Source: Acidobacteriota bacterium
Lineage (GTDB): Bacteria; Acidobacteriota; Terriglobia; Bryobacterales; UBA6623
Length of the DNA: 64,000 nt
Direction: 5' to 3'
Assembly (NCBI GenBank): GCA_016125275.1
Contig: WGMB01000010.1
Span: 248,001-312,000 of the forward strand
In this document: one piece after another, positions 26,851 to 39,191 of the stretch
Layout of the letters: each line of letters opens with the position of its first letter
Position numbering within the stretch: position 1 is the first letter of the stretch
The notes under the pieces: model-generated
The model's input: only the letters and a program-made list of their open reading frames with translations
Database searches by the model: none
Told to the model about the DNA's origin: nothing
Translations under genes and position numbers: made by a program

Positions 26851-27999
26851 ATGGGCAAGTTCTTTCCACTGGTGGCGAAGAGCTTGCTCCGTAACGTCCG
26901 GCGGACGGTGTTGACGGCGCTCAGCGTCGCCGTGTCGCTGTTTCTGCTCGGCTCCCTGCTGGCGGTCTACGCCGCTTTCTACCATCGGCCGGAGGGCGCG
27001 GACAAAGCGTTGCGTTTGGTCACCCGCCACAAGGTGTCGCTGGCGCAGTCCCTGCCGGCCTACTACGGCCGTCAGATCGCCCAGGTCGAGGGGGTGGAGG
27101 CCGTGGCCGGCGCAAGCTGGTTCGGCGGCGTCTACATCGACAGCCGTCCGGAGCACTTCTTCGCCCGCTTCGCCTGCGACCCTGACGTCATCTTCGACGT
27201 CTATCGCGAGTTCGACGTGCCGCCCGACCAGCTCGAGGCTTTTCGGAACGATCGCCAAGGCATGGCTGTCGGCAGTACGACGGCCGAACGCATCGGTCTG
27301 AAGCTCGGCCAGCGCATCACGATCCAGGGCGACATCTATCCCGTCGATCTCGAGCTCACGATTCGAGCCATCTTCAGCGGGCCTGACGACGACACCAGCT
27401 ACTTTCACCACAAGTACCTCGATGAGTCGATTCCGGAGGGCCGCCGCGACCGCATCGGTTTCTACGGCATCCGGGTGGCGAGCACGGACGACGTGCCGCG
27501 GGTGGCGCGCGCCGTCGACGAGATGTTCCGCAACGCTCCGGCGCCGACCAAGACGGAGACTGAGGCCGCCTTCAATCTCTCCTTCATCAATCAGATGGGG
27601 AACGTGAAGATGTTTCTGCTGTCGATTGCCGGCGCGATCGTGTTCACGATCATGCTGGTCTCGGCCAACGCCATGGCGATGTCAGTGCGCGAGCGCATCC
27701 GCGAGGTAGGCGTGCTCAAGACGCTGGGCTTCACGACCAGCGGCGTGCTGGGGCTGATCCTGAGCGAGGCCTTGCTCGTGGCAGGGGCCGGCGGAGCGCT
27801 GGGCGTCACGGGCGCCTACTTCGCCACCAAGCTCATGGACAAGCTCGCGGCAGGCTTCATCAGCGGCTTCGCGCTGCCCCTGTGGGGAGTGCCGATCTGT
27901 ATGGCGGCGGCGCTGCTGATCGGTCTGGGCAGCTCGTTCCTGCCGGCCCTGGCGGCTTCGCGCACATCGATCGTGGAGGCGCTGCGCCACAACGGCTAG
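26851..27999 (+). CDS. FtsX/MacB-type ABC transporter permease
   Basis: 382 residues. One membrane segment near the N-terminus (VLTALSVAVSLFLLGSLLAVYAAF), a periplasmic MacB-like part to about 250, and three C-terminal segments (FLLSIAGAIVFTIML..., LGLILSEALLVAGAGGALGV, CMAAALLIGLGSSFLPALAA) in the FtsX pattern. It is the first of two non-identical permeases of one exporter together with the adaptor and ATPase downstream. Confidence 0.85.
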   Translation: MGKFFPLVAKSLLRNVRRTVLTALSVAVSLFLLGSLLAVYAAFYHRPEGADKALRLVTRHKVSLAQSLPAYYGRQIAQVEGVEAVAGASWFGGVYIDSRPEHFFARFACDPDVIFDVYREFDVPPDQLEAFRNDRQGMAVGSTTAERIGLKLGQRITIQGDIYPVDLELTIRAIFSGPDDDTSYFHHKYLDESIPEGRRDRIGFYGIRVASTDDVPRVARAVDEMFRNAPAPTKTETEAAFNLSFINQMGNVKMFLLSIAGAIVFTIMLVSANAMAMSVRERIREVGVLKTLGFTTSGVLGLILSEALLVAGAGGALGVTGAYFATKLMDKLAAGFISGFALPLWGVPICMAAALLIGLGSSFLPALAASRTSIVEALRHNG

Positions 28000-28022
28000 C
28001 ACGCCGCAGGCTGAGACGACCC

Positions 28023-29198
28023 ATGGCCATCCCCCTCGCCTACAACCTGCGCAATCTTCGGGTCCGCCTGACGACCACGCTGATGACGGCGTTGGGCATT
28101 GCTTTGACCGTGGCGGTGCTGCTGGGTGTGATGGCGCTGGTGAACGGGCTGCGCGGCGCCTTGGAGGTGACCGGTCGCCCGGATCAGGTGATCGTCATGC
28201 GGCAGGGCTCGACGGCGGAGCTCGTCAGCGCGGTACAGGCCGAGAAGTTCCGCGACATTGCTCTGCTCGACGGCATCGCCCAGCGCGACGGTCAGCCGAT
28301 GCTGTCGCACGAGATCGTCTCCGTGGTGTCGCTGCGGCTGCGCGACGAGCCCGACAATCCGGAGACCGAGGGCAACGTCAACATCCGGGGCGTCTCGCCG
28401 ATGGGGCGCTACCTGCGCGACGACTTGAAGCTCACCGAAGGCCGTTGGTTCGAGCCCGGCAAACGCGAGGTTGTAGTCGGCCAGGGCGTGCATGCCATCC
28501 GCGCCAACTCGGACATCGGCGACAAGATCACCTTCGGGCGCGATGAATGGGAGGTCGTCGGGGTCTTCGAGGACGGCCGCTCGGCCTACAACAGCGAGAT
28601 CTGGTGCGACGGCAACTTGGCGACGCTCGACCTGGGGCGCAACGGCACGCGCAGCTCGGTGCTGCTGCGGGCGACCGACGAGGCCGCCGCGCAGGCGATC
28701 ATCCGGAGGGTCCAGCAGGATCAGCGCCTGCTGCTGGAAGGGCAGCTCGAGCGAGAGTATTACGCCAAGCAGATGAGCTCGGCGGGGCCGGTACAGGCGC
28801 TCGGGGTCTTCGTGGCGATGATCATGGCGGTGGGGAGCTGCTTTGCCGCCATGAACACGATGTATACGGCGGTCGCGCGGCGCTCGCGGGAGGTCGGCAC
28901 CCTGCGGCTGCTGGGCTTTTCGCGGGCCAGCATCCTGCTGAGCTTCGTGCTCGAGTCGCTGTTCCTCTCACTGACCGGTGGGCTGCTGGGCTGCCTGCTG
29001 GTGCTGCCCCTCAACGGGCTGCAAAGCCGCATCGGCAACCAGCTCACCTTCAGTGAGACGACATTCTCGTTTCAGATCACGCCGGAGAGCGTCGCGATGG
29101 GGCTGGGATTTGCCGCCGTGATGGGCGTTGTGGGGGGACTGCTGCCGGCTCGCCTGGCCGCGGGACGCAGCATCCTGGCTTCGTTGCGCGGCGGTTAG
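28023..29198 (+). CDS. FtsX/MacB-type ABC transporter permease, partner
   Basis: 391 residues from ATG 28023. The same one-plus-three membrane pattern, with TTLMTALGIALTVAVLLGVMALVNG at the N-terminus and VARRSREVGTLRLLGFSRASILLSFVLESL at the C-terminal FtsX core. It and the first permease are likely to form a heterodimer. A longer frame upstream to 27882 overlaps the previous gene and is not used. Confidence 0.85.
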   Translation: MAIPLAYNLRNLRVRLTTTLMTALGIALTVAVLLGVMALVNGLRGALEVTGRPDQVIVMRQGSTAELVSAVQAEKFRDIALLDGIAQRDGQPMLSHEIVSVVSLRLRDEPDNPETEGNVNIRGVSPMGRYLRDDLKLTEGRWFEPGKREVVVGQGVHAIRANSDIGDKITFGRDEWEVVGVFEDGRSAYNSEIWCDGNLATLDLGRNGTRSSVLLRATDEAAAQAIIRRVQQDQRLLLEGQLEREYYAKQMSSAGPVQALGVFVAMIMAVGSCFAAMNTMYTAVARRSREVGTLRLLGFSRASILLSFVLESLFLSLTGGLLGCLLVLPLNGLQSRIGNQLTFSETTFSFQITPESVAMGLGFAAVMGVVGGLLPARLAAGRSILASLRGG

Positions 29199-29211
29199 GG
29201 GACGCAGAACA

Positions 29212-30582
29212 ATGGCGAACGAATCCAACCTGGGAGCGGACCTCTCGCGCCTCAAGATCGACCGGGGCCGCCGGCAGCGGAACGAACGGCCGCTGTGGGC
29301 TCGCTGGTGGGCTCCGGCCGGCCTGGTGTTGTTGCTGGCGCTGGGGCTGTGGAGCTTCTTTGGGGCCGCGGGCGAGCCGGTGGTGGCGATCCAGCGCGTG
29401 GAAGCGGCTCGAATCGGCGGCGATCAGAATGAGCCCGGCGCGGCCGTCGTGCTCCAGGCTGCCGGCTATGTGGTGCCGCATCACAAGATCGAGGTCGCCT
29501 CCAAGGTGTCCGGCCGGGTGGCCTGGATCGGCGTCGAGAAGGGCGACCACGTCGAGAAAGGGCAGGTGCTGGTACGGCTGGAGGACAACGAGTTCCGCGC
29601 CCGGGTGAAGCAGTCCGAGGGTGAGACGGCGGCGCTGCGGGCGAGCCTGGAAGAGCTGGAGACCGGCTCCCGGCCCGAGGAGGTGCAGCGCGCCAGCGCG
29701 GACCTCGAAGAGGGCAAGGCGGATCTCGAAAAAGCTCGATTGGACCTGGAGCGGGCCAAGAAGTTGGTGTCCGAACAGGTCTGGGCGCGCCAGGAGCTCG
29801 ACAACGCTCAGGCCGCCTTCGACGCGCGCCAGGCCCGCGTCGAGGCGCTCGGCCGCAGCTTGGAGCTGCTCCGCATCGGACCCCGCAAAGAGGTCATCGA
29901 AGCCATGCGCGGCCAACTCCAGCGGGCGCAGGGTCAGCTCGACTTCGACCGCACACAGCTCGACGCAACGATCATCCGGGCTCCGGTGACGGGCACCATC
30001 CTGGAGCGCAACGTCGAGACCGGCGAGTTCGTGACCACCAGCTTCGTGGGCGAACGCGGCGCCAAGGGCTACGTCGTCTCGCTGGCCGACCTCAACGACT
30101 TGCAGGTGGAGCTCGACATCAGCCAGGACGACTTCGCCAAGCTCTCCATGGGCCAGAAAGCCATCGCCACAACCGACGCCTACCGGGATCGCGAATACAA
30201 GGGCGAGATCGTGGAGATCTCGCCCGAGGCCGACCGCCAGAAAGCGACCGTGCAGGTGAAGGTGCAGATCCTGGAGCCGGATTCCTTTCTGCGGCCGGAG
30301 ATGAACGCCAACGTGGCATTCCTGGCGCCGCCGCAAGCGGCCGCTTCCGGAGGAGGACCCGCTCCGGCTCCGGCGATCCGCGCACCGTCTTCGGCGGTCC
30401 GCAACGGCAAGGTCTTCCTGTACGTGAGCGGCAAGGTCATCGAGAGGGCCGTCGAGACGCGGCCCGGCCGTTCGGGCGATGTGGAGGTGGTCAGCGGTCT
30501 CTCCGGCGGCGAGGACTTGGTGGTCAATCCTCCCGAAGGGCTGACCGACGGGCAGAAGGTTCGACTGGAGGGAGAGGAATGA
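29212..30582 (+). CDS. HlyD/MacA-type periplasmic adaptor
   Basis: 456 residues from ATG 29212. One N-terminal membrane segment near 27-50, then a lipoyl/barrel-sandwich half-motif ([43 protein letters not shown]), a long coiled coil (about 130-240), the second lipoyl half ([22 protein letters not shown]) and a beta-barrel region. It couples the inner-membrane permease pair to an outer-membrane exit route. Confidence 0.9.
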
Positions 30583-31280
30583 GCGCGGCCAACGCCATCC
30601 AACTGCAGGGTTTGACCAAGGAGTTCCGGCGAGACGACTTCGTGGTGACGGCGCTGCACGAGGTCGATCTGGAGATTCCCACGGGCGAGTTCTTCTGCCT
30701 GATGGGCCCTTCGGGCTCGGGCAAGTCGACGATGCTGCACCTGATCGCGGGCATCGACCGGCCGACGGCGGGCAAGATCCTGGTGCTCGGTCAGGATGCC
30801 TCGTCGCTGGGCGAGAAGCAGCTCGCGGCCTGGCGCAGCGAGAACATCGGCTACGTCTTCCAAACCTTCAACCTGATCCCGGTGCTGACGGCGATCGAGA
30901 ATGTCGAGCTGCCGCTCCTGCTTACCGGCTTGAGCAAGAAGGAGCGCCGCGAGCACGCCCGCACGGCGCTGGAAGTGGTCGGCCTGGGAGACCGGCTGCA
31001 GCACTACCCGCGGCAACTCTCCGGCGGTCAGGAGCAGCGCGTCGCCATCGCCAGGGCCATCGTCACCGATCCTTCGATCCTATTGGCCGACGAGCCCACC
31101 GGCGATTTGGACGCCGTCTCGGCCAAGCAGATCCTCGAGATCCTGACCGAGCTGAATCGCAAGCACGGCAAGACCGTCGTGATGGTCACCCACGACCCGC
31201 ACGCGGCGCAATACGCCCACCGTACGCGTTACCTGGAGAAGGGCGACTTGCTGCAAGAAGCGCCCCCCATGCCGGCCTGA
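30579..31280 (+). CDS. ABC transporter ATP-binding protein (MacB/LolD type)
   Basis: 233 residues. Walker [11 protein letters not shown]-loop near [10 protein letters not shown], signature [14 protein letters not shown], Walker [13 protein letters not shown] and H-loop [10 protein letters not shown] are all intact. The group includes LolD, MacB and FtsE-type ATPases. It overlaps the adaptor gene by 4 bases. With the two permeases and adaptor it forms a four-gene exporter; the cargo is unknown. Confidence 0.93.
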
Positions 31281-31395: not shown

Positions 31396-31473
31396 TGTTA
31401 ACGTCGGCTTGATCGACGGCCGATGCGCTGGAGTATGGAGCTGCGCACGGCCGCGACTCAGGTGGATATCGGA

Positions 31474-32610
31474 ATGCTTCGACTTCTTACCGCTACACTT
31501 GCGGTCTTCGCGGCCGCCGGGATGGGCTTAGGCCCGCCCGCGAACGCGCAAACTCAAACCCATATCTGCGCAGACGGTTCGGTGAGGGCGCTGACGCCTT
31601 TCAATCAGAACCCCTGCGGCAGCATCGGCAGGGCCTCGACTGACGCTCCCGCGCCCACCCAGGAGCCTCAGCCCAGTCCCGCGCCCGCGGAGCCGGCGCC
31701 GTCGTCGCCCACGGCCCCGACCACTCCGCCCACGCCCGCGACGGCTTCGAACACGGTCACCTGCGACTACGGTCGAGTCGTCTACCGGACGCCGTTCAAC
31801 CCCAACCCCTGCGCGGTGGCCGCGCCGGCCGAACCCAAGGAAGTGCCGGACGACTTTCTGCTGGTGTTCGGCGGCGATCCGCCCGCGACGGGACTCGCGC
31901 TGGAGGACCGCCTGGCTCAGGAGGTTCTGCACGCGCGCTTTGACAGCTTCGTGACCTCGATCGCGGCGCCGGACTCGTTCCAAGACGGCGCGGCGGCCTA
32001 CGAGCGTTGGGGTCTGGGCGAGCCCGTCTTCTACCGCGACAGCGGCGGCGAACGCGTCCGCTGGCCTTCGGCGGCCTTCGAGCCGGCCGAGGCGGCGCTG
32101 GCTGACGCTGTCGAGCGGCCGGACGCCGTGGTGGCGGCTTGGCAGACGCGGGTGATCCTGCGGGGCGGCGTGCTGCCGGAGCTACACCCGGACGTTCCCG
32201 CCAACGTCGCAAAGTTGCATGAGGCCCGGGTTTCGGAAGAACCCGGGGATGCGCCGGATGTTCCGGCGATCCTGACCTGGGCGTCGACGACCCAGGCTGC
32301 GGCGGCGTTGCACGAGCCCGGCCCGGACTTGGCGGCGTGGGGCCTGTCGAGCGCGCTGAGCTCGCCGGCTCGGCCCGGCGACTGGGTGCGGTTGTACGTC
32401 GCCGGCTTGGCCGCCGACGAAACTGTTTCGGTGCTGCTGGGCGGCGTGCGCCTGGCGCCGGAGGACTTTTCCGTGCTAGAGCTCGCTGGAGGCCTGCATT
32501 GCCTGGCCTTCCAGATTCCCGCCAACGCCAACAGCGGCGACCAGCAGGTCTACGTGGAGACGGCGCGGGCCTCCTCGCAGCCCGGACCCTATTTGTCGGT
32601 GGAGAGGTAA
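31474..32610 (+). CDS. Secreted protein of a new PFNxNPC family, with a Solibacter-type C-terminal domain
   Basis: 378 residues from ATG 31474, preceded by AGGTGG 9 bases upstream; an in-frame start at 31423 would only lengthen the signal peptide. A signal peptide (about 1-25, ending ANAQ) is followed by two copies of C-x2-G-x-V-x4-PFNxNPC (Cys32-Cys48 and Cys97-Cys113) joined by a Pro/Thr/Ala-rich linker. Next comes a core of about 125 residues (PDDFLLVFG, YERWGLGEPVFY, WQTRVILRGGVLPELH). The last 90 residues resemble the Solibacter C-terminal domain (TIGR03437), a likely Ig-like beta fold. No function is known. The next gene encodes its homologue, four bases away. Confidence 0.7.
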   Translation: MLRLLTATLAVFAAAGMGLGPPANAQTQTHICADGSVRALTPFNQNPCGSIGRASTDAPAPTQEPQPSPAPAEPAPSSPTAPTTPPTPATASNTVTCDYGRVVYRTPFNPNPCAVAAPAEPKEVPDDFLLVFGGDPPATGLALEDRLAQEVLHARFDSFVTSIAAPDSFQDGAAAYERWGLGEPVFYRDSGGERVRWPSAAFEPAEAALADAVERPDAVVAAWQTRVILRGGVLPELHPDVPANVAKLHEARVSEEPGDAPDVPAILTWASTTQAAAALHEPGPDLAAWGLSSALSSPARPGDWVRLYVAGLAADETVSVLLGGVRLAPEDFSVLELAGGLHCLAFQIPANANSGDQQVYVETARASSQPGPYLSVER

Positions 32611-32613
32611 GTC

Positions 32614-33198
32614 ATGTTCTATCGCTATCTGCCCTTGCTCCTGCTGATCGGCGGGGCGGCCTACGCCCAGCCCGTCACGCAGACCTGCGCGGACGGTCGC
32701 GTCATTGCCGTCTCGCCGTTCAATCCCAATCCCTGCCGCGTGGGCGTTCCCGCCGTGCGTGAGCAGGTCGAGGCCGAGGCCAGCTCGATGCCCGACGGCT
32801 TCCTCAAGGCCTTCGGTCCGCCGCCGATCAACAGCGGCAACAGCCTGATGGACCGTGTGGCTCGCGTCGAATACGAGCAGGCCATGGAGCACTTCGCCGG
32901 ACTGGTGGAGGAGCCCGAAGGCTTTGAGAAGATGGCCAGCTTCTACTCCCGCTGGGGTCTGGGCGAGCCGGTCTTCTACAAAGGCCGCTACGGCGAATAT
33001 TGCCGGTTCCCGAACGCTCCCTACCGGCCCATGCAGACGACGATGTTCACGGCGACGCACGGCGCCGGCGTGGCGGTGGCTTCCTGGCAGGCGCGCCTGA
33101 TCTTGGAAGGCCACGTCCTCAGCGATCTGCACGCCTTCGTTCCGCCGTGGCTGCAGGCCATCAACAGCGAACGCTTGCAGGCGGCCAACCAGCAGTAG
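32614..33198 (+). CDS. Secreted PFNxNPC-family protein, short paralogue
   Basis: 194 residues. A signal peptide ends near AYAQ (residues 16-19). One Cys-bounded motif (Cys25-Cys41) follows, then the core shared with the previous gene: PDGFLKAFG, YSRWGLGEPVFY (111-122) and WQARLILEGHVLSDLH (158-173). It lacks the linker and the C-terminal Ig-like domain. The pair is a tandem duplication, separated by only 3 bases and so almost certainly cotranscribed. The identical Cys positions suggest a disulfide between the two motif cysteines. Function unknown. Confidence 0.7.
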   Translation: MFYRYLPLLLLIGGAAYAQPVTQTCADGRVIAVSPFNPNPCRVGVPAVREQVEAEASSMPDGFLKAFGPPPINSGNSLMDRVARVEYEQAMEHFAGLVEEPEGFEKMASFYSRWGLGEPVFYKGRYGEYCRFPNAPYRPMQTTMFTATHGAGVAVASWQARLILEGHVLSDLHAFVPPWLQAINSERLQAANQQ

Positions 33199-33253: not shown

Positions 33254-33385
33254 GCTTCCCCCTCCGGCCGGTGGGAAAGTTTTCCCTGGGCGCCGAGGTT
33301 CTCCGTCCGCTGTCGCTTTCCCTTCTAGTAAGACGATTGCGCCCGCGATCCGCCCCTCAGAGGGCCACCGGACAGGAGATCCCCC

Positions 33386-34219
33386 GTGCTCACCCCCTTT
33401 CAATACGTCAAGCGCTACCACGATCTGTGGAGCCCCCAGTTCATGCCCTGGATCGCGCCGGCCGGCTTTTACGGCATCGGCGCGGTGCAGACGCCCGTCA
33501 AGGAGTACAGCAACCTTCGCTACAAGAACAAGGCAGGCAAGTCGCCCTCCGAGCGGCTCGGCTTCAAGGACGATCTGCTGCGGTTTTTCCACCAGCGGGC
33601 GAAGGAGAGCGACTCCGGCGTCAGCTATGACAAAGGCGACGGCTACTCCCTGAGCGGGTCACTGACGATCCGGCCGATCTACGACTTCAAGAAGAGTAGC
33701 TTCATGAGCAGCTTCAGCGGGAAGGCCAGCCCGGAGGTCCTTGCGGACATGATTCAGCTCATCAGCTACTGGCGCTACTGGCAGACGGCCAAACTGGGCA
33801 AGACCGTAGCGCCGCTGGCTACGATCGTCGAAAGCTACCTGGGCGCGGACTGCAACGGCTTCATCGGCAACTATCTACGCGCCAAGTACGCCGGCAACTC
33901 GCTCGGTCCCAGCTCCACCGAGTACACCTATCACGTCAAAGGCAAGCACACCCGCCGGACGAAGTTCAGCGAGATCCGCATGGACGACGTGATCGTCTGG
34001 GAGGGCTACGGCCACGTGACGATCATCCAGGAGCTGATCGACTGGGGCGACGATTGGGCCGTGGTCGAGATCTGCGAATCCCGCAGCAAGGACTACGGCG
34101 GGCCGCAGTGGGCGATCGACGAGCTGACGTGGCAGACGAAGAACGGCAAGCCGAAGCCCGGCAGCTTCCGGATGAGGGGCCAGGATATCGCCTCGATCTC
34201 CGACGTGCGGTACGTGTAG
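33386..34219 (+). CDS. Hypothetical protein with NlpC/P60-like Cys and His motifs
   Basis: 277 residues, GTG start with AGGAG 8 bases upstream; no signal peptide. I do not recognise the N-terminal 140 residues (aromatic-rich, FQYVKRYHDLWSPQF). In the second half ADCNGFIGNY (Cys156) resembles the DCSGxx nucleophile motif of NlpC/P60 peptidases, and VWEGYGHVTII (His210) resembles the GH(V/I) motif that follows. A third polar residue could be Glu228 or Glu231. This suggests a papain-like amidase or peptidase, but the similarity is short. It lies alone after a terminator and converges with the sigma54 activator. Confidence 0.5.
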   Translation: MLTPFQYVKRYHDLWSPQFMPWIAPAGFYGIGAVQTPVKEYSNLRYKNKAGKSPSERLGFKDDLLRFFHQRAKESDSGVSYDKGDGYSLSGSLTIRPIYDFKKSSFMSSFSGKASPEVLADMIQLISYWRYWQTAKLGKTVAPLATIVESYLGADCNGFIGNYLRAKYAGNSLGPSSTEYTYHVKGKHTRRTKFSEIRMDDVIVWEGYGHVTIIQELIDWGDDWAVVEICESRSKDYGGPQWAIDELTWQTKNGKPKPGSFRMRGQDIASISDVRYV

Positions 34220-36878: not shown

Positions 36879-38501
36879 TCAGCCGACGGACGGCGGCGCC
36901 TGACTGCGATCCTTCCAGGCCTTCCACAGCGCCTCGAGCTCGGCGGCCTTTTCCGGCATGTCCGTGGCGAGGTCGTGTAGCTCCGTACCGTCGGACTCCA
37001 TGTCGTAGAGCTCCCAAGGTCCCTTATCGGCGGAGACGAGCTTCCACTTTCCCTGGCGGACTGCGCGGCCATGGTTCCACTGCCAGTACAGCGCCGAGGG
37101 CGGCTCGCGGCGTCCGCCCCGCAGCACCGGCGCCAGACTGCGACCGTCCATCGGCAGGGCCGGGCGGCCGTCGACCGTGGAGGGAGGCTCGACACCGGCG
37201 ACGTCGAGAAAGGTCGGCGCTAGATCGGTGACGTGCCCGAGCTGATCCGTGATCGACCCCGGCTCGATCACGCCGGGCCAGTGCGCGATCAGCGGCGTCA
37301 TCACGCCGCCCTCATGATCGTATTGCTTGAACAGCCGGAACGGCGTGTTGGAGGCGTTGGCCCAGCCGTGGCCGTAGCTCTGGAAAGTGTCCGCCGGGCC
37401 GGGCATGATGTCGGGCAGATTGCCGCGCCGAATGGGCCGCCCGTCCTTGGTGGCCGGCGGGAGGAAGTCGCCGGTGCGATCGGGAGTGTACTCGACGTGG
37501 CAGCCGCCGTTGTCGATCTGAAAGCAGATCAAGGTGTTGTCGAGCCTTCCTTGGCGCTCCAGCTCGTCGAGAATGCGGCCGACGCCGCGGTCCATCACCG
37601 AGACCTGCGCCGCGTAGACTTCCATGCGCCGCTGTTGCCACTCCGGGTGGGGTTCGTCCTCCCAGGCCGGGACGGCGGCGTGGCGCGGCGATAGGGGCCA
37701 GTCCGGGTTGATGACGCCGAGCTCCTTCTGGCGGACGTGTCGCTGCTCGCGAAGGGCGTCCCAGCCGGCGGCGTAGCGGCCCTTGTGCGGTTCGATGTCC
37801 TCCGGGAAAGCGTGCAACGGCCAATGAGCGGCGGTATAGGCGACGTAGAGGAAGAAGGGCTTGTCCTGCGCCGAGGCTTCCTCGATGTAGGCGACTGCGT
37901 TGTCCGTGATGGCGTTGGTGAAGTAGTAGTCCGGCGCCGCCATCTCTTCGGGGACCTCCTGGTTCTGCCGGACCAGGGCCAGCGGCTGAAAGTAATGCGC
38001 CGTGCCGAACAGCATGCCGTAGTAACGGTCAAAACCCTTCTGGCATGGGTAGGTCTCGAGGTCTCCGATCGCGCCGGCTAGATGCCACTTGCCGACCATG
38101 TAGGTCCCGTACCCGGCGTCGCGGAGAGCCTGGGGAACCGTCGCCGCCCGAGGGTGGAGAACGGTCTGCCCGGGGCCCTTGAAACACGACACATCGCTGT
38201 GGATGCCGGTCATCAAGGCCGCCCGCGTGGGCACGCACATGTTGTTGGTGTGGTGGTTGGTAAAGCGCAGTCCGCCGTAGCCCAGGCGGTCGAGGTGAGG
38301 CGTGGGGATCTCCCCGCCGTAACAACCCAGGTCCGAGTAGCCCATATCGTCGGCCAGGATCATGACGATGTTGGGCCGGCGGCCGGAGTCCTCCGGGGCC
38401 GCAGGTCCCGAGGCCCCGGCGCAGCCCATCCCGGCGAGAGAGGCCGAGGCGCCGAGGGCTCCTCCGAGGAAGGTTCTGCGGGAAAGAGAGGAGTCCGACA
38501 T
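36879..38501 (-). CDS. Exported sulfatase (formylglycine type)
   Basis: 540 residues. Twin-arginine signal (SRRTFLGGALGASASLAG) followed by Gly-Cys (GMGCAG), a weak lipobox. The alkaline-phosphatase-fold metal site NIVMILADDMGYSDLGCYG and the sulfatase signature CVPTRAALMTG (Cys89, CxPxR) show a cysteine-type sulfatase that needs conversion to formylglycine by a maturation enzyme. TGIHS and the later GxK...HGRAVRQGKWKL region fit. It hydrolyses sulfate esters of an unknown substrate, probably a glycan. Confidence 0.9.
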   Translation of the reverse strand: MSDSSLSRRTFLGGALGASASLAGMGCAGASGPAAPEDSGRRPNIVMILADDMGYSDLGCYGGEIPTPHLDRLGYGGLRFTNHHTNNMCVPTRAALMTGIHSDVSCFKGPGQTVLHPRAATVPQALRDAGYGTYMVGKWHLAGAIGDLETYPCQKGFDRYYGMLFGTAHYFQPLALVRQNQEVPEEMAAPDYYFTNAITDNAVAYIEEASAQDKPFFLYVAYTAAHWPLHAFPEDIEPHKGRYAAGWDALREQRHVRQKELGVINPDWPLSPRHAAVPAWEDEPHPEWQQRRMEVYAAQVSVMDRGVGRILDELERQGRLDNTLICFQIDNGGCHVEYTPDRTGDFLPPATKDGRPIRRGNLPDIMPGPADTFQSYGHGWANASNTPFRLFKQYDHEGGVMTPLIAHWPGVIEPGSITDQLGHVTDLAPTFLDVAGVEPPSTVDGRPALPMDGRSLAPVLRGGRREPPSALYWQWNHGRAVRQGKWKLVSADKGPWELYDMESDGTELHDLATDMPEKAAELEALWKAWKDRSQAPPSVG

Positions 38502-38591: not shown

Positions 38592-38870
38592 ATGATACGG
38601 AGCTTCGCTCACAAGGGTCTGAAGCGGCTCTATGAACGGGATGACGCCAGCGGCATCGGTTCGGACTTAGTGGACAAGGTTCGGACGATTCTGCTGCAAC
38701 TCGATGAGGCTCAGAGCATAGACGACATGCGCATGCCGGGCTTCCGGCTGCATGGGTTGAAGGGAGACAAGAAAGGGTACTGGTCGGTCACGGTCAAGGC
38801 CAACTGGCGCATCATCTTCAAGTTCGACGATGCGGAGGCCTCGGATGTCGAATTGCTCAACTACCACTGA
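38592..38870 (+). CDS. higB: HigB-like toxin
   Basis: 92 residues in the RelE/HigB fold: IRSFAHKGLKRLYERDD at the start and NWRIIFKFDDAEASDVELLNYH at the end, with the basic RxxF/W region expected of an mRNA interferase. The toxin-first order with the antitoxin 24 bases downstream is the hallmark of higBA. Role: ribosome-dependent mRNA cleavage under stress, by family. Confidence 0.93.
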   Translation: MIRSFAHKGLKRLYERDDASGIGSDLVDKVRTILLQLDEAQSIDDMRMPGFRLHGLKGDKKGYWSVTVKANWRIIFKFDDAEASDVELLNYH

Positions 38871-38894: not shown

Positions 38895-39191
38895 ATGCCG
38901 ATGAAGAATCCTCCCCACCCGGGCCTTTCCGTGCGCCTCAATTGCTTGGAGCCCTTGGGTCTGAACGTGACGGAAGGCGCCAAGGCCCTCGGCGTCAGCC
39001 GCCAGGCGCTGTCACGGCTGATCAACGGACAGGCCGGAATCTCAACCGAGATGGCGATTCGGCTCTCGAAGGCCTTTGGAACTACGCCGGATATCTGGAT
39101 TCGGATGCAGGCGGCCTACGACATTGCGCAGGCCAAGAAGACCGAGGATGAGATCCTGGTGGATCGCTTTCATCCCCGGTCTGCGGCTTGA
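38895..39191 (+). CDS. higA: HigA-like antitoxin
   Basis: 98 residues, an Xre-type helix-turn-helix protein of the HigA group ([56 protein letters not shown]). AAGGA lies 12 bases before the ATG. It would neutralise HigB and repress the operon. Confidence 0.94.

Follow-up and report, generated by a model that had tools for sequence, protein, structure and literature searches.

What kind of enzyme is encoded at positions 33386 to 34219 of this window (the whole 64,000-nucleotide stretch of acidobacterial DNA that was analysed), and in which compartment would it act? The gene lies on the forward strand and encodes a protein of 277 residues. Its GTG start codon falls at the N-terminal motif of the family alignment and is preceded by AGGAG at 33374-33378, 7 nt upstream. 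The gene is present as a single copy in the window's genome (G000, 7.55 Mb), in which the window is located in contig C20. The sequence-only reading had singled out the motifs ADCNGFIGNY, with Cys156, and YGHVTII, with His210, and had proposed that they form the core of an NlpC/P60-like amidase in a protein with no other recognisable domain and no signal peptide. Both motifs are present as it described them.

Conserved residues of the family

An alignment (A3) of 33 sequences, the window protein and 32 relatives which are 14-40% identical to it, was prepared from 42 listed sequences by leaving out fragments and near-duplicates. Tyr41, Gly112, Lys113, Gly153, Asp155, Cys156, and His210 are invariant across the 33 rows, while Pro116 is found in 32 and Phe159 in 31. 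The predicted nucleophile Cys156 (forward strand, codon 33851-33853) lies in a G-x-D-C-N-G-F motif and is followed by the predicted general base His210 (forward strand, codon 34013-34015). A third conserved polar residue, overlooked by the sequence-only reading, is Glu231 (forward strand, codon 34076-34078), which is Glu in 28 rows and Gln in the remaining 5 and is predicted to complete the triad. N-terminal to the predicted catalytic Cys, residues 112-116 form the sequence GKASP (33719-33733, forward strand), a GKxxP signature of the family. In two alphaproteobacterial sequences (L113 and L114) DCNCLVGN is found instead of DCNGFVGN.

The family is named by no Pfam, NCBIfam or PHROG model, and no description of it was found by title or start of abstract in the open-access literature, where subscription papers are mostly missing. 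It is apparently undescribed. The window protein gave no NCBIfam or PHROG match, and outside the predicted catalytic core the claim that there is no recognisable domain holds for all three libraries. Against Pfam, the window protein alone has no NLPC_P60 (PF00877) match, and its CHAP match over residues 153-219 stays below threshold (E 0.01; 16.8 bits, cut-off 26). PDB sequence searches returned three chance matches (E 0.34-0.87), and none for the window protein alone.

Relationship to NlpC/P60 and CHAP enzymes

Profile comparison, one of the checks proposed together with the original claim, supports it. The family profile aligned to a profile of MepS, NlpC, and lambda K with a probability of 87.2 (E 3.8e-6), placing Cys156 opposite MepS Cys94 and His210 opposite MepS His145 (precursor numbering). 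When the family profile was ranked against 26 single proteins taken from four sequence stretches, MepS (82.9) and NlpC (77.2) came first and second, and the best protein from outside the superfamily, btuE, reached 2.6. Three other members of the superfamily scored poorly in the same set, with 8.1 for the phi11 lysin, 0.5 for lambda K, and 0.4 for the cell wall hydrolase of phi11. With both residues retained in every row of the alignment and MepS and NlpC at the top of the ranking, the Cys/His motif is not a chance resemblance.

The second relationship is to CHAP domains. The family profile matched a profile of two phi11 CHAP domains with a probability of 41, and Pfam searches with the 33 rows (E≤1) detected CHAP (PF05257) in 12 (best 2e-6) and NLPC_P60 in 9 (best 1.6e-4). 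Together, the profile scores and the Pfam matches indicate that homology is clearest to canonical NlpC/P60 peptidases, with CHAP enzymes second, and by sequence comparison the window protein very probably belongs to the NlpC/P60-CHAP superfamily. As in the canonical group, Cys stands in a DC-[NS]-G-F type motif and is followed by His and then by a third polar residue, Glu231. AlphaFold models were of too low confidence for the geometry to be read (pLDDT 31.2 for an input of two rows, the window protein and L008, and 33.2 for L008 alone); the two-row input was also poor, as it paired His210 with H184 of L008, whereas H224 is the invariant His in the relatives of L008.

The order of the motifs bears on the substrate. 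According to a 2026 paper (PMC12994826), canonical members of the superfamily cut peptidoglycan and permuted members act on lipids. As Cys precedes His in the window family, which is the unpermuted order, peptidoglycan is the likelier target.

The PHROG searches also raise the possibility of a phage endolysin or a tail-associated hydrolase left behind in the chromosome. Weak matches to a minor tail protein family were seen in 4 of the 33 rows (best 8.9e-5) and to three endolysin families in 2-3 rows each (best 0.012), none of them for the window protein. Set against this, no relative was found in viral-contig scans or in phage records (two queries), and by eye no phage genes stand beside the window copy. 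Phage ancestry is very improbable. A phage or plasmid origin was likewise rejected after viral-contig scans and tblastn searches of phage and plasmid records returned no relative.

Absence of an evident signal peptide

That the protein has no signal peptide, as the sequence-only reading claimed, agrees with a rough hydropathy test carried out without a signal-peptide predictor and with start codons chosen close to where the profile match begins. No 13-residue stretch within the first 45 residues has a mean hydropathy of at least 1.6 in 32 of the 33 rows, and one row is borderline at 1.62. Three signal-bearing controls scored 1.94-2.49 in the same test. Judging from the co-occurrence with type VI genes described below, this absence would be best explained by type VI delivery.

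Distribution and transfer between phyla

The family is sparsely distributed. Counting the window's genome in each case, relatives were found in 6 of the 61 genomes of the relatives search, the profile search detected the family in 29 of 257 genomes of the window's order, and a sample of the phylum contained it in 3 of 392 genomes (3 of 396 in another run), the two others being G069 and G236. One relative belongs to a named Reyranellaceae MAG, and in the alphaproteobacterial order of that MAG 7 of 76 genomes possess the family. Some genomes have several copies, up to 7.

The tree does not separate the two phyla. The clade of the window copy, with support 99/99, includes L002, L034, L035, and two rows from Alphaproteobacteria. 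Overall the alphaproteobacterial rows are found in five places, three of them nested in well-supported groups that include sequences from the window's order. One such protein, L108, shares 82% identity with an enzyme from the window's order and has the same partner gene. The simplest reading is transfer between phyla, the alternative being wrong contig binning in draft genomes. Such mixing of rows from two phyla fits mobile weapon genes.

Co-occurrence with type VI secretion genes

The type VI sheath gene VipB is more frequent in genomes that carry the enzyme, although all the p values that follow are inflated by shared ancestry. In the window's order VipB was found in 157 of 257 genomes, comprising 27/29 carriers and 130/228 non-carriers (one-sided Fisher p 5.3e-5). 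At the genus level all 12 carrier genera have VipB, as against 50 of 72 (p 0.019). In the alphaproteobacterial order VipB was found in 25 of 76 genomes, with 6/7 carriers against 19/69 others (p 0.0044), and permutation within genome-size thirds gave p 0.022. Both other carriers of the phylum sample, G069 and G236, possess VipB. Within the window's own family (18 genomes), G000 is the sole carrier of VipB and also the sole carrier of the enzyme. Of the 157 genomes of the order that have VipB, 130 are without the enzyme family.

VgrG was found in 30 of the 32 carriers in which it was searched for, the exceptions being G606 and the VipB-positive G542. VipB was not detected in 3 of 38 carriers: G049, where VgrG is present; G606, which is 82% complete; and G716, where of these two genes only VipB was searched for. 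The presence of the gene in G606 and G716 would suit a toxin that leaves the cell by some other route (lysis, a killing type IV system, or a contractile injection machine of another kind) and is linked to type VI secretion only indirectly. Lipoprotein immunity partners, of the kind that may be present in one subclade (see below), occur with killing type IV systems as well. With VipB or VgrG in 36 of the 38 carrier genomes, export by such a route is unlikely.

In G000, the type VI genes covered by the search (sheath, spike, ClpV, and several baseplate genes) were seen on two contigs. VipA and VipB are near the end of contig C17, and contig C4 carries VgrG, ClpV, TssG, TssF, a gp25-like TssE, an FHA protein, and a TssA-like protein. 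All of these are on different contigs from the enzyme gene. G000 has a further VipB-like gene at G000:C14:1677487-1678356, within L121. It is divergent (179 bits, compared with 455 for the first one) and possibly represents a second contractile system. Among the positions listed, the genes come close on one contig, G505:C224, where the enzyme is found at 10.9 kb and is followed by VipB (27 kb) and VgrG (36 kb). This was not counted as linkage, because the intervening genes are by eye unlike type VI genes.

Neighbouring genes

Reading frames up to 4 kb from the enzyme were compared at 47 loci and the window, and later at L122, which belongs to the window's clade. The flanking genes were called by a simple GC-position script which failed in places and missed partner genes that a profile search recovered. 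Directly beside the enzyme, the only neighbour that recurs in more than four loci is a secreted protein of about 200 residues, mostly a lipoprotein, in the subclade whose enzymes start with MPT[PA]. It is encoded just upstream in all 12 full-length loci of this subclade, a count that leaves out an unplaced contig-end fragment in G546. The spacing is 9-36 bp in the 11 loci where it was measured; in the twelfth (L018) the partner is cut by the contig end. A lipobox after a hydrophobic stretch was detected by script in 7 of 11 partners and by eye in three more (L026, L028, and L050), while the L108 partner has a signal-like start and no lipobox. Two of the partners were checked against Pfam and matched no family. 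In G513, where the enzyme copy is broken, no partner could be recognised in the 3.2 kb of the locus.

By analogy, the partner looks like an immunity lipoprotein, although the effector-first gene order is the more usual one. Over 11 loci, pairwise identities average 73% among the enzymes and 50% among the partners, and the enzyme is the more conserved in all 55 pairs.

Other recurring neighbours are more scattered. A large protein whose family was not identified recurs in nine loci, mostly 1-2.4 kb from the enzyme. A protein which by eye is kinase-like is encoded 0.06-0.9 kb upstream in four loci, L045 and L054 both have an NnrU-like gene directly upstream, and there are smaller recurring sets besides. 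In another subclade, a lipoprotein-like gene of 281 residues is found directly upstream of the enzyme (L082, 9950-10795; L085, 6253-7098). It has no match to the profile of the MPT[PA]-subclade partner and is a candidate for a second immunity protein.

The window copy, which belongs to a clade other than the MPT[PA] subclade, has no specific neighbour in common with other carriers across the 47 loci and L122; it is linked to them only through ABC-transporter, sulfatase, and similar common families, and in the same comparison no immunity gene is evident beside it. The gene directly upstream (32614-33198, forward strand) has a Sec-type signal by eye and ends 187 bp before the enzyme gene, making it a weak candidate for a partner. 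It is not favoured as an immunity gene, since it has multiple homologues in G000 (four other places besides the neighbouring gene) and is absent beside the enzyme in other carriers. Searches of 100 genomes found a match in 4, G000 included. The adjacent gene at 31423-32610 (forward strand) is related to it; both products begin with a signal-like stretch and contain the motif C-x-[DY]-G-[RS]-V...PFN-x-NPC repeatedly, and neither has a Pfam match.

Further away, three genes at 27882-31280 (forward strand) resemble by eye those of a MacAB-like exporter (ABC permease, membrane-fusion protein, ABC ATPase). The genes at 38592-38870 and 38895-39191 (forward strand) resemble a HigB/HigA-type toxin-antitoxin pair. 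At 36879-38501 on the reverse strand is a gene that looks sulfatase-like by eye and whose product has a leader of the twin-arginine type. Related frames occur near the enzyme in four other carrier loci, which probably reflects how common the sulfatase family is.

Rather than leaving the cell, a canonical NlpC/P60-fold hydrolase might work in the cytoplasm of its own cell, for instance on recycled muropeptides or on another gamma-glutamyl or amide substrate, the association with type VI secretion being a by-product of lineage and lifestyle. The missing signal peptide and type VI linkage, the lack of a specific conserved neighbour for the window copy, and the strong conservation in one subclade would all suit such an enzyme. 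A housekeeping role agrees poorly with the sparse presence, the up to 7 copies, the mixing of phyla in the tree, and the enrichment of VipB in two orders, and a cytoplasmic enzyme would hardly need the secreted partner of the MPT[PA] subclade. A cytoplasmic role is therefore rather unlikely, though it is the strongest of the alternatives.

Proposed function

The family occurs mostly in bacteria that possess the type VI "harpoon" and has no evident export signal; it may therefore be a weapon injected into rivals. The favoured reading, to which a probability of about 0.5 is given, is that the protein is a peptidoglycan amidase of the canonical NlpC/P60 type which reaches its target through type VI secretion. 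The predicted cysteine amidase or peptidase (Cys, then His, then Glu) would be made in the cytoplasm, loaded onto the type VI secretion system of its own cell, and injected into the periplasm of neighbouring Gram-negative cells, where it would cut an amide bond in the stem peptides of peptidoglycan. The secreted protein encoded next to the enzyme in the MPT[PA] subclade, in most loci a lipoprotein, would confer immunity.

Several observations count against type VI delivery. The window copy is not linked to type VI genes and has no specific common neighbour, whereas according to a review (PMC5471719) linkage to vgrG or hcp holds for almost every effector known. VipB was not detected in 3 of the 38 carriers, most VipB-positive genomes of the window's order do not have the family, and at the genus level the association weakens to p 0.019. 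The mean enzyme identity of the partnered subclade is unusually high for an arms race. If delivery is confirmed, this would be a new effector family from environmental bacteria, a group for which few descriptions of type VI arsenals seem to exist. Effector screens based on domains would miss it, because no domain library searched names it. The conserved enzyme-lipoprotein pair is a ready-made toxin-immunity candidate.

Comparison with known systems

MepS and NlpC of E. coli have in common with the window family the order Cys-His-polar residue, the G-x-D-C-[NS]-G-F motif, and the His motif. Unlike them, the family has no evident signal peptide or lipobox, and its N-terminal region of about 150 residues, with the invariant Tyr41 and GKxxP, falls outside the aligned part. 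The third residue also differs. In MepS this role belongs to His157, which is invariant in alignment A8, whereas the window family has Glu or Gln; a Glu in this position resembles CHAP. CHAP amidases (PF05257) are matched by 12 of the 33 rows, but the window protein itself stays below the cut-off, and the profile probability to the phi11 CHAP domains is 41%.

Among type VI effectors, the family has features in common with Tae1-4, members of the amidase effector superfamily that was reportedly introduced by Russell et al. in 2012. Tae enzymes, which include Tse1, are likewise NlpC/P60-like Cys/His enzymes without an evident secretion signal. The window family is found in mostly type VI-positive cells, and one of its subclades has a secreted partner, a candidate immunity protein. 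As with Tae-type effectors, type VI genes (sheath, spike, ClpV, and several baseplate genes) are present in the same genome, G000, but the window family, unlike Tae1-4, is not linked to them. No effector family was found among the Pfam (E≤1) or NCBIfam matches of the 33 rows, a comparison made at the level of these models and not with Tae sequences directly. The window protein is about twice as long as Tse1. According to PMC3391265, Tse1 has only a Cys-His dyad and cuts the gamma-D-glutamyl-meso-DAP bond; the window family differs in its third polar residue, Glu/Gln231.

TseH and Tox-Act1 are described in PMC12994826 as NlpC/P60-superfamily toxins delivered by type VI secretion. These are circularly permuted and act on lipids, whereas in the window family Cys precedes His. 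Tentatively, and with odds a little short of even, the family would add a new, fifth type to the amidase effectors of type VI secretion. Its members would be NlpC/P60 enzymes with the unpermuted motif order and an N-terminal region of their own (Tyr41, GKxxP), which may be used for loading. They would have been exchanged between Acidobacteriota and Alphaproteobacteria, and would be paired with an immunity lipoprotein in one subclade while the copies outside it are orphans.
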